This document shows, piece by piece, positions 23,266 through 41,610 of a stretch of 64,000 nt of DNA. Each line of letters begins with the position of its first letter. Positions within the stretch are counted from its first letter, which is position 1. The stretch is from Methanocaldococcus lauensis (GTDB lineage Archaea > AGJL01 > Methanococci > Methanococcales > Methanocaldococcaceae), in the NCBI RefSeq assembly GCF_902827225.1, contig NZ_LR792632.1:453030-517029 (forward strand). The letters are read 5' to 3'. Made by a program: the position numbers and the translations under genes. Below the pieces are notes generated by a model. The model ran no database searches, was not told the origin of the DNA, and saw only the letters and a program-made list of their open reading frames with translations.

Positions 23266-26200
23266 TTATTCCACTGTAACACTCTTAGCTAAACCTCTTG
23301 GTTTATCAACATCTCTTCCAAGTTCAACAGCTTTATAATATGCTAACAATTGAAAGGCAGGAGCATAGACAATTGGAGAAATCTCTTCAATAACTTCTGG
23401 AACTAATATGTTATATGTGTTATCAATCTCAATTGGAGTTATAGCCACTACCTTTCCTCCTCTTGCTAAAACTTCTTCAATATTTGATAATAATGACTCA
23501 TACACTGATGAACTTCTTGGTGGCACTATTGCTATAGTATCAATATTTTCATCTATTAGTGATATTGTCCCATGCTTTAACATACCTCCACTCATTCCCT
23601 CTGCATGTAAGTAGGTAATTTCTTTAAACTTCAAAGCCCCTTCTAATGCACTAACAATATTTATCCCCTTAGATATAAATATGTAGTTATTTACCTTTAG
23701 ATTTTGAGAAATATTTTTAATTATATCTTTTTTATTTAAAACCTCTCTTACATAGTCAGGGATTTTTTCAATTTCATTTTCATATTTACTCATATCCCTA
23801 CCAATAAGTTTTCCATACTCTATAAACAGTCTGTAAATTATCATTAATTGAGAAGTGTAAGTTTTAGTAGCACAAACAGCAATCTCAATTCCTGCACCCA
23901 TCATAATGGTTATATCCGCCTCTCTTGTTGCAGAACTTCCAATAACATTTACTATAACTCCTGTTTTAGCTTTATTTTTCTTAGCGAATCTTAAAGCCTT
24001 TAAAGTATCATAAGTTTCTCCACTTTGAGTAATTCCTATAACCAATGTTTTTTCATCTACCACCCCTTTATTTAAAAACTCTGATGCATCACAGGCAATA
24101 ACAACTTTTCCTAACTTTGAAAATAGATACTCAGCAACCATTGCCGCATGTAGTGATGTTCCCATAGCAACAAAATAAACCCTTTCATAATCTTTGATGC
24201 ATTTAGCTAATTTTCTAATTTCCTCAGAGGATATTTTAGCAGAGATTTTTAAAACTTCTGGCTGTTCCATAATCTCCTTTAACATAAAGTGAGGATATCC
24301 CATCTTTTCAGCAGAGCTTATGTCCCAATCAATTTTTATTACGTCTCTTTTTACAATTTTTCCATCATTCTCTATAACAACTTTATAATTATCATTTTCT
24401 TTTTTAATTATGACAATATCGCCATCTTCTAAAGGAATCGCCTTATTTGTATAATCTAAAAATGCTGTAACATCGCTACCTAAATAATAACTATTATTTC
24501 CAACTCCTAAAATTAGGGGACTTTCATTTCTTGCTCCAATTAATAGGTTTGGAAAGTTTTTATTTATTATGGCTAATGCATAAGTTCCTTTTAGTTTTTT
24601 AATTGCATTTTTAACAGCTTTTATGTAATTCTCTTCATTTATATATTCAAATTTCTTTAATTCTTCTTCAATTAAATGAGAAATAACCTCTGTATCTGTA
24701 TCTGATTTAAACTTATGCCCTTTTTTAATTAACTCCTCCTTTAATACTTTATAGTTAGAAATTATTCCATTATGAACCACTGCTATTTCATCATTGCAAT
24801 CAGTGTGTGGATGAGCGTTTTCTTTACTTACATTACCATGCGTTGCCCATCTTGAGTTATGATTAATTATTAGGTTTCCAATAAAGTTGTGATAATCTTC
24901 AACCTCTAAATCATAAACATACTCAACATCTGACTCAATCTTTTCAATCTCAAATTTTGACCAAACTACATCTCCATTTAAAAATTTTTTTAGGTAGTTT
25001 GCTTTGTCATATAATCCTCTACTATTTAATTCTTTAATAATCTTTTCTATTGTGTAATCAGTGCAATAGTTATCTTCATTTTTTATTGTTTTTAATGAAA
25101 CGCCTACAAATTCTATTATTTCTTTTTTAGTCATTGGAACTGAAATATATCTAAAGTTAAGTCCTTTCATTTTGTTTAATATATTAATTAATTTCTCTAT
25201 TTTGTCCTTTGCAGTAAAGCCAATGTATTTCTTAAATAATTCAAAGGATTTTTTATCACTTATAAGAAGTTTATATACATTAGTATAATATTTCTCTTCT
25301 CTCTCCATTTTTGAATATGATGCTAAAATTCCAAATCTCAACAACAAGAACTGAATTTCTTTTATAAGACATTCAGAAGTCATTCCTATACCAATTTGCT
25401 TAGCATCAACTCCTATATAACCTTCTGCATCAAATATTCCCCTTAAATATGATGCAACTAAATCATTATTTAATCTAAATACAAATTCTGGAGTTCTTTT
25501 ATTTAACAACTCTGGAATGTTCTTTTTAAACCAATCCACCAAGTATTTGTTGTTTATCTCCAATATGTAATAACCATTATCTTTTTTGATATTTCCTTCT
25601 AAGTTAAAAACATTATTAAATAGTTTATTGTAATATTCCAAGACATCTTTTCTTTCATCTTTTAATCTCAACATTCTATTTGAAGAAAAATAACCTTTTC
25701 CAATAATATAACCAACAATTTGCATTAATTCGGGAGTAGGGGTTTTTGGGAATTTGATTGGATTTGTATTTTTTATTGTCTTAAACTCAACTTTATCATT
25801 AAAATTATAATTTAACTTCCTTACTATACCAATTAACTCACTACCATTCAAATCCTCAACACATTTCTCAACTATCTTTCCATTTTCTACCACAAACAGT
25901 TTATGTTCTCCAGTTGTGATAAGTTCAGAAAAAGGTGTTTTTATCTTATATAATACCTTTGGTGCTTTATGTTTAAACTTTTTGATTTTTTTGTTATATA
26001 GTTTCAAATCTTCAAAATTAACTGATAAAACCTCATTTTTATCATCAATTTCAGAAATCTTTTTTATCCTTCCATCTGATAGAATAATATAAGTGTCTGG
26101 ATGAAGACAATGTCCTACTCCTATATTACCCTCAACACTTAAAAAATCCTCTTTTTTAGATACTTCATCAACTTTTCCAACATCCTTTTTAATAATTAAT

Positions 26201-26322
26201 CTGTCTTTATTAATAATACCAATCCCACAACTGTCATATCCTCTATATTCCAATCTTTTTAAACCATTTAATAATACCTTTGATGCCTTTTCATCTCCAA
26301 TATATCCAATAATTCCACACAT
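23266..26322 (-). CDS. glmS: Glutamine--fructose-6-phosphate aminotransferase (isomerising), intein-containing precursor
   Basis: GlmS makes glucosamine-6-phosphate from fructose-6-phosphate and glutamine. The mature protein is about 600 residues: class-II glutaminase with Cys2 ('MCGIIGYIGD'), then two SIS domains with 'YFVAMGTSLHAAMVAEYL', 'GITQSGETYDTL' and the C-terminal 'PRGLAKSVTVE'. Residues 72-489 are an intein inserted after 'GNIGVGH' and before 'SRWATHGN', next to the glutaminase active-site loop. Splicing is required for activity, since the insertion breaks the glutaminase domain. It converges with tldD (10-base gap). Confidence 0.97.
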   Translation of the reverse strand: MCGIIGYIGDEKASKVLLNGLKRLEYRGYDSCGIGIINKDRLIIKKDVGKVDEVSKKEDFLSVEGNIGVGHCLHPDTYIILSDGRIKKISEIDDKNEVLSVNFEDLKLYNKKIKKFKHKAPKVLYKIKTPFSELITTGEHKLFVVENGKIVEKCVEDLNGSELIGIVRKLNYNFNDKVEFKTIKNTNPIKFPKTPTPELMQIVGYIIGKGYFSSNRMLRLKDERKDVLEYYNKLFNNVFNLEGNIKKDNGYYILEINNKYLVDWFKKNIPELLNKRTPEFVFRLNNDLVASYLRGIFDAEGYIGVDAKQIGIGMTSECLIKEIQFLLLRFGILASYSKMEREEKYYTNVYKLLISDKKSFELFKKYIGFTAKDKIEKLINILNKMKGLNFRYISVPMTKKEIIEFVGVSLKTIKNEDNYCTDYTIEKIIKELNSRGLYDKANYLKKFLNGDVVWSKFEIEKIESDVEYVYDLEVEDYHNFIGNLIINHNSRWATHGNVSKENAHPHTDCNDEIAVVHNGIISNYKVLKEELIKKGHKFKSDTDTEVISHLIEEELKKFEYINEENYIKAVKNAIKKLKGTYALAIINKNFPNLLIGARNESPLILGVGNNSYYLGSDVTAFLDYTNKAIPLEDGDIVIIKKENDNYKVVIENDGKIVKRDVIKIDWDISSAEKMGYPHFMLKEIMEQPEVLKISAKISSEEIRKLAKCIKDYERVYFVAMGTSLHAAMVAEYLFSKLGKVVIACDASEFLNKGVVDEKTLVIGITQSGETYDTLKALRFAKKNKAKTGVIVNVIGSSATREADITIMMGAGIEIAVCATKTYTSQLMIIYRLFIEYGKLIGRDMSKYENEIEKIPDYVREVLNKKDIIKNISQNLKVNNYIFISKGINIVSALEGALKFKEITYLHAEGMSGGMLKHGTISLIDENIDTIAIVPPRSSSVYESLLSNIEEVLARGGKVVAITPIEIDNTYNILVPEVIEEISPIVYAPAFQLLAYYKAVELGRDVDKPRGLAKSVTVE
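24856..26109 (-). other. Intein in GlmS with LAGLIDADG homing-endonuclease domain
   Basis: The 418-residue intein begins with Cys ('CLHPDTYIILSDG') and ends 'NLIINHN', with Ser as the next extein residue. Block B 'TTGEHKLFV' supplies the T-x-x-H pair, so the splicing machinery looks intact. Two LAGLIDADG motifs are recognisable: 'IVGYIIGKG' (residues 202-210) and 'LRGIFDAEG' (293-301). In the first, the catalytic acid is Lys209; the second retains Glu300. The endonuclease is therefore probably inactive or crippled. The GlmS site is a known intein location in M. jannaschii, where I recall a longer intein. Confidence 0.93.
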
Positions 26323-26782: not shown

Positions 26783-27328
26783 TTATTTATTTACAAGAAG
26801 TTTTAAAAGAGTTAGTTTAGCCTGCTCTTCTAAAGTTTCCACTTTTACATAGGCATCAATTAAATCCTTTCCTAAGCAAACTACACCATGATTTTTTAAT
26901 ATTATCACATCTTCATCTCTTTTTGCAGTTTCTTCTGCCAATTTTACACTCCCTGCCTCATAATAATCAACATATCCAATTTTCTTTAAAAATACTTTTC
27001 CATCTGCTGTTAATATTTCTATTTCTTTGTCTATTATTGATAAAAAAGTAGAGACAATTGAATGAGTATGGATTATAGCATTTACATCCTTCCTTTTCCT
27101 ATAAATCATTAAATGGAGATTTCTTTCAGATGTAGGATTTCCTTTTATAATATTTCCATCTAAATCCATTATAGCAATATCATCTTCTTTTAAAAACCCT
27201 AAAATAGAGCCAGTTGGCGTTAAATAAACTATATTTTTATCTCTAACTGAAACATTCCCTCCACTACCTACTACATACTTTCTATCATATAATCTTTTAC
27301 AGATTTCAATAAATAGAGATTTATTCAT
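26783..27328 (-). CDS. Class II aldolase (L-fuculose-1-phosphate aldolase-like)
   Basis: The zinc ligands sit in '[14 protein letters not shown]' and '[14 protein letters not shown]', with '[10 protein letters not shown]' near the start that binds the phosphate of the substrate. Length 181 residues from the ATG at 27328 fits the family. The M. jannaschii homologue has been reported to act on lactaldehyde and dihydroxyacetone phosphate, linked to lactaldehyde made for coenzyme F420. A GTG start at 27340 is an alternative. The start and leader lie in a 98-bp tandem duplication. Confidence 0.9.
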
Positions 27329-27503
27329 AGTTTCACTCAAAATATCTTTAATATTAATATTATAACGGCAATGTATAGAAAGATAATTAAAAGTTCTAAG
27401 AGTATAATAAATAGAGATTTATTCATAGTTTCACTCAAAATATCTTTAATATTAATATTATAACGGCAATGTATAGAAAGATAATTAAAAGTTCTAAGAG
27501 TAT
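27308..27503 (-). repeat. 98-bp tandem duplication spanning an operon junction
   Basis: Bases 27308-27405 and 27406-27503 are essentially identical head-to-tail copies. Each copy holds the end of the coiled-coil membrane-protein gene, the spacer, and the ribosome binding site plus first seven codons of the aldolase. The duplication leaves both flanking genes intact. Absence of drift between the copies indicates a recent event or ongoing correction. Confidence 0.93.
27337..27426 (-). CDS. 29-codon chimeric membrane micro-ORF created by the duplication
   Basis: The upstream copy retains the aldolase start signal (GTGAAACT then ATG at 27426). Its first seven codons (MNKSLFI) run in frame into the transmembrane end of the membrane-protein gene supplied by the second copy ('[20 protein letters not shown]'). 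It stops at the copied TGA. The product would be a single transmembrane helix. It has a usable start site and sits inside the operon, so translation is possible; any function is unknown. Confidence 0.5.
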
Positions 27504-27719
27504 TATGTTAATACGAATAATTTTTAAATTTTTTTTAATATCGTCCATAATTTTTAAGTATAATCCTAAAATTAAAATAGTTTCTTGACTTAGTATTTTA
27601 TTAGTTTTCTCATCTATCTTTTTCTCGTTTTCTTTTAGTTTAGCATCTACTCTCTTCTCTAATTCTAAAATTTTTTTATTTAATACTCTAAAATTTTCTT
27701 CTATTTCTCTCTCGTCCAT
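27435..27719 (-). CDS. Small coiled-coil protein with C-terminal transmembrane helix
   Basis: The 94-residue protein has a highly charged heptad-like N-terminal 50 residues ('NKKILELEKRVDAKLKENEK') and a hydrophobic C-terminus ('[19 protein letters not shown]') that should span the membrane. It resembles short tail-anchored coiled-coil proteins; I do not recognise a family. It lies 18 bases downstream of lonB and upstream of the aldolase, on the same strand. LonB is also membrane-bound, so a link is possible but unproven. Confidence 0.7.
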   Translation of the reverse strand: MDEREIEENFRVLNKKILELEKRVDAKLKENEKKIDEKTNKILSQETILILGLYLKIMDDIKKNLKIIRINIILLELLIIFLYIAVIILILKIF

Positions 27720-27737: not shown

Positions 27738-29696
27738 TTATTTGGAAATCTTAGATGTTTCAGTATTTTTTATAGATTCTAAGTCAAACACCAATGGAAT
27801 AATTTCATCCAATGTCTTTACTGGAATAATTTCTATTCCTTCACTTTCTATAACATCTATTTTATTAGCCTCTGGAATTATAACCCTCTTGAACCCATAT
27901 TTCTTTGCCGCCTCTATTTTTTCATTAACTCCTCCAATTGCCAAAACATTTCCATTTAAATCTAAACTTCCAGTTATTGCAAAGTCTTGTTTTAATGGGA
28001 TGTTTAATAAGGCAGATATTATTGCTAAACATACTGCCGCTGTAGCACTATCTCCATCTATTTTTGAGTATGACTGACTAAATTGGATATAAATCTCTTT
28101 ATTATTTAGATCTATATCTTTCTTAGGTAGTGGAAGTTTTCCTTCGCTAACCAGTTTTTTTGATAATGCAGATGCCAATGTTATAGAATGCTTTGCAATA
28201 TCTCCAGAGATGTTTAATAAGTGAGTTCCTGGATTCTTTGAGTCTAATATTTGGACTATAATTTTGGTTACATCTCCAATTCCTCCAACTCCTATAACTG
28301 CCAATCCATATACTACCCCAACTTTTGGTGTATCGTTGGGAACTATATGCTTATATCTCTTAAAGTTTTTAATATAGTTTAAAGCTACTTGTTTCTCCAT
28401 ACTGTAAATTCCAGATTCAAACACCTTTCTAATATGCTCGGCAGTAATGTAAACTTTTTTATTATCATCTTTTTTAGTTTCTGGATTGTAATTACCTTTT
28501 TCATCAAAGTTTCCTAATAATTCTTCAATTTCTTTACCCATCGCTATATCGTTTGCCATTTTTATAATGTTAGCAAGTAATCTTAATCTCAATGTTAATT
28601 TATCCTTGGATCCAGCTAAGTATTGAGCAATTTTAACTACTTCACAACATCCGTCATAAGTCATTGGATTTAAATTGTTATTTTTTATTTCTTGAACAAT
28701 GAACTGTAAAATCTTATCTCTATTTTCTAAGGTATTATCCATTTTGTTCTTTAAAACAATTTTATAGTCAATTCTATCCAATAGAGGGGCTCTTAAATTA
28801 TAGACATCATCCATATTTCCAGACATTATTAAAATAAAATCACATGGAATTGGATTAGTTTCTACAGTAGCCCCACTTGAGTTTGGATTTCTTCCACTAA
28901 TTGGGAGACATTTATCTTGTAATGCAGTTAATATATAATCTTGAACTTCTAAGGGCATTGTTTTTATTTCATCGACATACAAAATTCCTCTATGAGCCTC
29001 GTGAATAGCCCCCAATATAATTCTCTTATGTGGAGGAGTTCCTAATGGTGGTCTTCCACCTAATGGACAGTGCTTAATATCCCCCAATAATCTCGTTACA
29101 TTGTATGCACTCGCTCTAACAAGAGGTCTCTTTTTGCATTCATATAATAGAACTGGCTTTAAATCCATTGGACTTAAAGAGTTGCTCATTGAAGCTCTTG
29201 AAGCTCCCATTATACTTGTTAATATTATAATGAACCCAAATACTAATACAATTAAAGCTGTTATTGTCACTGACGCTAATAGATACTTTTCAGGTATGCT
29301 TCTTAAAAAATACTGTGACAAAATTATCGCTCCAACCATTATTAAAATTAAAGTTAATGGATTAGGAGATTTTAAATCTAACTTTGGAATCTCTTTTAAA
29401 TCTTCTTTGTACTCCCCATCTATAACTTCAACTATTGGTCTCTCCATATTCTTTAAATTAGGTTTTGCAATTACATAGTAAGGGGTAAAATCTCCAAAAT
29501 CTTGTAAAATTTCTCCTACTGCTTTTACAATCATTGATTTTCCAACGCCAGGATCCCCTAATAAAATAACATTTCTTTTGTTTTTTACTGCTGATAAAAT
29601 AATTTTAACTGCTTCATCTTGTCCAATAACTTGGTCAATTAATCTTGGAGAAGGTTCGGGCAATTCTTCGGTAGTTTTAAATTTTATTGAAAACAT
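27738..29696 (-). CDS. lonB: Archaeal membrane-anchored Lon protease (LonB)
   Basis: AAA+ protease with Walker A 'GDPGVGKS' (residues 47-54). Two transmembrane segments, about 113-131 and 139-161, are inserted in the ATPase domain. The C-terminal peptidase domain has the Ser-Lys dyad: Ser in 'KIDGDSATAAVCLAI' and Lys in 'GGVNEKIEAAKKYGF'. 'LYVDEIKTMPLEVQDY' is Walker B and sensor region. 652 residues is typical. LonB degrades damaged and membrane proteins on the cytoplasmic side in archaea, which lack FtsH. Confidence 0.95.
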   Translation of the reverse strand: MFSIKFKTTEELPEPSPRLIDQVIGQDEAVKIILSAVKNKRNVILLGDPGVGKSMIVKAVGEILQDFGDFTPYYVIAKPNLKNMERPIVEVIDGEYKEDLKEIPKLDLKSPNPLTLILIMVGAIILSQYFLRSIPEKYLLASVTITALIVLVFGFIIILTSIMGASRASMSNSLSPMDLKPVLLYECKKRPLVRASAYNVTRLLGDIKHCPLGGRPPLGTPPHKRIILGAIHEAHRGILYVDEIKTMPLEVQDYILTALQDKCLPISGRNPNSSGATVETNPIPCDFILIMSGNMDDVYNLRAPLLDRIDYKIVLKNKMDNTLENRDKILQFIVQEIKNNNLNPMTYDGCCEVVKIAQYLAGSKDKLTLRLRLLANIIKMANDIAMGKEIEELLGNFDEKGNYNPETKKDDNKKVYITAEHIRKVFESGIYSMEKQVALNYIKNFKRYKHIVPNDTPKVGVVYGLAVIGVGGIGDVTKIIVQILDSKNPGTHLLNISGDIAKHSITLASALSKKLVSEGKLPLPKKDIDLNNKEIYIQFSQSYSKIDGDSATAAVCLAIISALLNIPLKQDFAITGSLDLNGNVLAIGGVNEKIEAAKKYGFKRVIIPEANKIDVIESEGIEIIPVKTLDEIIPLVFDLESIKNTETSKISK

Positions 29697-41174: not shown

Positions 41175-41610
41175 TTAGTTTAATTCTTAATTTTTTATTA
41201 GTAGAATTTAAATATTTAAATAAATATAAAAATAATTTTTATAATTGGTAAAATAATGAATCAGAAATGTTAATGAAAATGATGAACTCGTATTTGGAAA
41301 TACATTAAAATAAAAATAATATAAGATGCTAAAATAAAAGTAGATGAAGCTGTCGAAAAATCTTTTGAAAGTAATATTTTAAATATTTAATCTAATTATA
41401 ACTGAATAAAGAAGAATTAAAAAATTGTTATAAATGACTCTAAAAAGTGTCTAATTAGTGGTTCCTTGAGATGTGAAATTAAGAAGAATATTATTTTGAA
41501 GAATGAAAATTTGTGTGAGGACATATAAATATATAGAAAAATATGCCTTTCGAAACTGTTAAATAATAGTGTATGCAACTAATAATATCTTAAAAATGGA
41601 TCTGTTCTCT
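41175..41610. other. 436-base gap with no intact gene
   Basis: The spacer between the radical SAM gene and the end of cdhC is AT-rich with short stretches that look like worn coding sequence on the plus strand, for example 'NESEMLMKMMNSYLEI' near 41255 and 'VDEAVEKSFESNILNI' near 41342. None has a ribosome binding site with a long frame. I see no hairpins, repeats or RNA gene. It may be a decayed small gene. Confidence 0.4.

Follow-up and report, generated by a model that had tools for sequence, protein, structure and literature searches.

A 98-bp Tandem Duplication Across a Stop/Start Junction in Methanocaldococcus Yields a Chimeric ORF and a Putative Duplicated Translational Relay

Introduction

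Tandem duplications that ignore gene boundaries are known to create chimeric genes in Drosophila, where one duplication joins the 5' end of a gene to the 3' end of its neighbor, both parents stay intact, and the resulting chimeras are polymorphic within or between close lineages (PMC5460883). Short distances between co-oriented genes have been studied from another side, in translationally coupled pairs (PMC6728339, PMC10666635) and in upstream ORFs that deliver ribosomes (PMC12548453). For Haloferax volcanii it has been reported that reinitiation falls to approximately half at gaps of 13–14 nt and to near zero at 22–23 nt (Huber et al., PMC10666635). A third line of work concerns emerging micro-ORFs that encode transmembrane segments, for which a “TM-first” route of gene birth has been described (PMC7005711).

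Here we analyze a locus that touches on all three of these systems, in a 64,000-nt stretch of a Methanocaldococcus genome (hereafter referred to as the window). Judged from its letters, the locus is a chimeric ORF produced by a tandem duplication that ignored gene boundaries, in this case at a closely spaced archaeal junction.

Results

The three genes of the presumed operon all lie on the minus strand, in the order lonB, a 94-aa membrane gene, and a fucA-type aldolase. The first of these, lonB (27738–29696), encodes the ATP-dependent protease LonB (TIGR00764, 864 bits), while the last (26783–27328), which is the downstream parent of the chimera, encodes an L-fuculose-phosphate aldolase of 181 aa (FucA_Meth NF040649, 316.6 bits vs. 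a cut-off of 250). The upstream parent (27435–27719) has a charged, coiled-coil-like region and a C-terminal transmembrane segment, and searches of Pfam, NCBIfam, PHROGs, and PDB returned weak sub-threshold matches for it, with no family above cut-off. Among the genomes searched, homologs occur in most of those from Methanocaldococcus and in two from the sister family, and in the relatives they usually adjoin lon and the aldolase. Values of dN for this gene lie far below those of dS, with 0 vs. 0.06 against Methanocaldococcus sp. SG1, 0.03 vs. 0.28 against G009, and 0.14–0.20 vs. 1.07–1.49 against other relatives, and the dN/dS of 0.11–0.14 against five species indicates that the gene is under purifying selection.

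Two observations on the membrane gene in other genomes may be added. In G011 and G004 it is kept at approximately 60% identity with neither lonB nor the aldolase in flanks of about 1.5 kb, so the gene is not bound to the lonB-aldolase order. The G012 ortholog (G012:C1:603228-603506) has an in-frame TAA (...KILK-stop-EVLL...) with the frame conserved on both sides, which could reflect a recent nonsense mutation or an error in sequencing, or else a gene that is tolerated in two pieces. Elsewhere on the minus strand of the window, a GlmS-like ORF of 1018 aa (23266–26322) contains an apparent intein from ...NIGVGH/C... to ...NFIGNLIINHN/S...; an intein in a GlmS-type enzyme is known in Methanocaldococcus.

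Window positions 27308–27503 consist of a single 98-bp unit in 2.0 copies with 100% matches, as reported by TRF as well as a second repeat search, and a script comparison found the copy nearer the aldolase (27308–27405) to be letter-for-letter identical to the copy that follows it head to tail, nearer the membrane gene (27406–27503). A perfect tandem repeat of this length is no chance match. The breakpoints, read directly from the letters, are without microhomology, and one falls inside each of the two adjacent genes, with the unit reaching from 22 codons before the membrane-gene stop to 7 codons into the aldolase. Since it begins within the final codons of the first gene and extends only slightly beyond the start of the second, the block leaves both parents whole (27719–27435, 94 aa; 27328–26783, 181 aa). 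A unit length of 2 modulo 3 puts the copied aldolase start in frame with the end of the membrane gene, where the new reading frame closes at that gene's stop. A first-pass annotation of this DNA had described the 98-bp duplication, its position across the gene junction with an in-frame fusion, and the completeness of both parents, all of which agree with the repeat searches and sequence comparisons; the two copies, which it had called nearly identical, are in fact fully identical.

The chimeric ORF created in this way (27337–27426, minus strand; found in the ORF list and by letter comparison) spans 90 nt from the ATG at 27426 to the TGA at 27337, with the fusion point at 27406/27405. Its first 21 nt (7 codons) come from the start of the aldolase and the remaining 69 nt (22 codons and the stop) from the end of the membrane gene, such that 29 codons take their start from one parent and their stop from the other while leaving both intact. 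De novo origin from non-coding DNA can be rejected, since the chimera consists entirely of codons copied from its parents, each in the parental frame. The hydropathy maximum over 19 residues is 3.31, the same as in the 94-aa parent, from which the chimera inherits its transmembrane segment. An in-frame TTG four codons upstream of the chimeric ATG would give a 33-aa variant, which is the less likely of the two forms.

To place the duplication among close strains, we compare the window with its relatives, of which SG1 (LR792634.1) is the nearest named genome at 97.65% identity over 51 kb (1196 mismatches in 50996 positions). SG1, G009, and all other relatives in which the gene pair is linked and readable have a single copy, with a stop-to-start gap of 8 nt in SG1, G009, G012, G008, and G001, and 11 nt in G006. 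In the window, 106 nt separate the first stop from the aldolase ATG, vs. 8 nt in SG1. SG1 DNA matches the window as two abutting pieces from which the extra unit is missing, seen as an insertion in the window in the 51-kb alignment, and over the aligned stretch the window minus one unit aligns to both SG1 and G009 without a further indel. The 51-kb alignment also has insertions of 71 and 70 bp relative to SG1 at window positions 41258 and 58663, neither of which was flagged by the tandem-repeat scan described below.

It is clear from these alignments that the single-copy gap of 8–11 nt is best taken as ancestral, with SG1, G009, and the other relatives pointing to an ancestor with one copy. 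Since the duplication is absent in both SG1 and G009, with G009 as the outgroup, the comparison favors a gain in the lineage of the window after its split from SG1; a precise collapse of the tandem repeat in the relatives is a possible and less parsimonious alternative. The first-pass annotation had proposed looking for the event in sister strains and had called it recent. The absence from SG1 and from the relatives with a linked, readable pair supports that dating, but the identity of the copies over 98 bp only bounds their divergence below about 3% (95% bound). Two copies that had diverged by 2.35%, as the window and SG1 have, would still show zero differences over 98 bp with a probability of 10%, and copy identity thus dates the event poorly and adds little on its age.

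Duplications of this kind are rare in the genomes sampled. The tandem-repeat scan (unit of 25–1500 bp, at least 90% identity) covered 1.2 Mb, comprising 464 kb of the host genome with the window included, 340 kb of SG1, and 400 kb of five further relatives. Positions 27308–27503 were the only match in the 464 kb of host genome, none was found in the 340 kb of SG1, and the 400 kb of relatives gave one, in G008, which, judged by eye, includes a CRISPR-repeat-like sequence and resembles a repeated spacer unit. The locus is therefore the sole non-CRISPR tandem duplication in the 1.2 Mb sampled. Its novel junction had no match among IMG/VR viral contigs.

The hybrid ORF is a different matter. We modeled all duplications with units of 40–400 bp, letting one breakpoint fall anywhere in the 94-aa gene and the other anywhere in the first 300 nt of the aldolase, and 32% of them give an ORF from the copied aldolase ATG to the copied upstream stop. 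With the unit fixed at 98 bp, 82 of 84 placements do so. Given a duplication at the junction, the model would thus make the hybrid ORF itself unremarkable, arising by default in about one third of cases, and the “birth” of a new gene announced by the first-pass annotation is overstated.

The start region of the chimera is an exact copy of that of the aldolase. The 8-nt gap from the membrane-gene stop to the chimeric ATG (27427–27434, minus strand) reads GTGAAACT, with a weak Shine-Dalgarno motif, GTGA, and the 8-nt gap from the chimeric stop to the aldolase ATG (27329–27336, minus strand) is identical to it. Against the end of the host 16S rRNA, GGATCACCTCCT, the best anti-Shine-Dalgarno pairing upstream of the chimeric ATG is −5.2 kcal/mol, compared with −7.65 kcal/mol for the median window gene; 76% of 34 window genes pair at least as strongly, and 18% of random sites reach this value. 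The ribosome binding site that had been credited to the new ORF as its own is thus present, but as a weak copy of the aldolase motif. The RNA structure of the duplicated region is not unusual (z-score of 0.21 vs. shuffles, folded at 37°C).

Discussion

We consider it reasonably probable (approximately 0.7) that a 98-bp tandem duplication arose after the split from SG1, that it acts as a duplicated translational relay, and that any peptide is most likely a by-product. The proposed event is a duplication, within the cluster of lonB, membrane gene, and fucA-type aldolase, that spans the point where one gene stops and its closely spaced, co-oriented neighbor starts. A ribosome leaving the membrane gene would meet the chimeric ATG 8 nt on, would then make a hydrophobic peptide of 29 residues, and on stopping at the end of the chimera would find the aldolase ATG a further 8 nt on. 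If the membrane gene and the aldolase are coupled, a gap of 106 nt would be expected to break the coupling while two gaps of 8 nt could keep it, because reinitiation in H. volcanii is lost at about 20 nt (PMC10666635). By analogy with that system, 8 nt should lie within the range that keeps part of the coupling, though it is not the typical overlap (PMC10666635). In this reading any peptide that is made would most likely be a by-product, one that leaves the flow of ribosomes to the aldolase unbroken, and not a selected gene. Coupling would be irrelevant if the aldolase initiates on its own, as it may do from the weak Shine-Dalgarno motif that it possesses.

The alternative that survives best, though we regard it as unlikely, is that an assembler left an untrimmed overlap of two contig ends as a false tandem repeat at their seam. 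The exactly 2.00 identical copies and the breakpoints without microhomology are what such an overlap would leave, and a lone seam would be expected to give just one such repeat, as seen in the 464 kb. A length of 98 is also the k − 1 overlap of some de Bruijn assemblers at k = 99. The chromosome contig, however, has its circular seam at another place, inside an IF-2-like gene, where it has been trimmed to the base and where the frame read across the join agrees with both SG1 and G009 over 115 aa (100%) with no repeat or gap, which rules out circularization as the source. Terminal redundancy was found in neither contig, the genome (Methanocaldococcus, 1.54 Mb) is in only two contigs and 98.72% complete, and the block is located in unique sequence, which rarely causes such assemblers to break. 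An artefact, which would then have to be an internal join, is disfavored overall.

Taking the duplication as real, it might instead matter through a change in aldolase expression (by a longer leader, two start sites, or the loss or gain of coupling) with no part played by the peptide, a reading to which we give somewhat less weight than to the artefact. The growth of the distance between membrane-gene stop and aldolase start from 8 to 106 nt invites it, as does the ability of short upstream ORFs to deliver ribosomes to a downstream gene (PMC12548453), but the ordinary RNA structure (z-score of 0.21 vs. shuffles) offers no help, and with the relay spacing kept a neutral outcome is as likely.

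We think it quite improbable that the ORF is a functional micro-gene, with a 29-aa membrane peptide that is both translated and under selection, for example as a dominant competitor of the parental transmembrane segment, a membrane tether, or a regulator. It has an intact frame with a strongly hydrophobic segment, it lies within a presumed operon and took its start site from a conserved gene, and in yeast novel transmembrane peptides can prove adaptive (PMC7005711). Set against this, it occurs in a single genome, about a third of junction duplications make such an ORF by default, copies without divergence hold no signal of selection, and the Shine-Dalgarno pairing is weak. Equally doubtful is the joint claim that stop/start junction duplication is a general route to new small archaeal membrane proteins, copying start site and transmembrane segment together while parents stay whole and the ribosome relay keeps running, with this locus an early stage whose peptide is made and already affects parent or aldolase output.

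Returning to the duplicated relay with its by-product peptide, the locus, if real, offers a clean before/after pair in close strains, one copy in SG1 and two here, for the formation of a hybrid ORF without harm to its parents. The spacing argument predicts that an accidental ORF of this kind keeps the downstream gene supplied with ribosomes, and if that prediction holds, such mutations would be unusually well tolerated in closely packed operons. The chimera itself is most likely an evolutionary by-product rather than a functional gene. No prokaryotic precedent of exactly this event was found in the literature searched, which is weak evidence of novelty and not proof of absence.

Compared with the Drosophila chimeras (PMC5460883), the locus agrees in the joining of two neighbors by one duplication, in the intact parents, and in its presence in one of two close lineages. 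It differs in scale, with a unit of 98 bp that is far below whole exons or genes and a product of only 29 codons, and in setting, which here is prokaryotic and polycistronic, with no new promoter and with putative expression of the chimera. With translationally coupled pairs (PMC6728339, PMC10666635) and ribosome-delivering upstream ORFs (PMC12548453) it shares co-oriented genes on the same strand at very short spacing, the new ORF lying between its neighbors with the same gap of 8 nt on either side. The gaps here are +8 nt, however, rather than the typical 4- or 1-nt overlaps, the coupling is putative, and the coupling element has itself been duplicated. Like the micro-ORFs of “TM-first” gene birth (PMC7005711), the chimera is a very young, small ORF with a transmembrane-like segment, but that segment comes, with its frame unchanged, from a membrane protein already present and not from non-genic DNA. 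The event is a small, tidy, and probably young example, in one strain of a thermophilic methanogenic archaeon, of a type of event that is already known.
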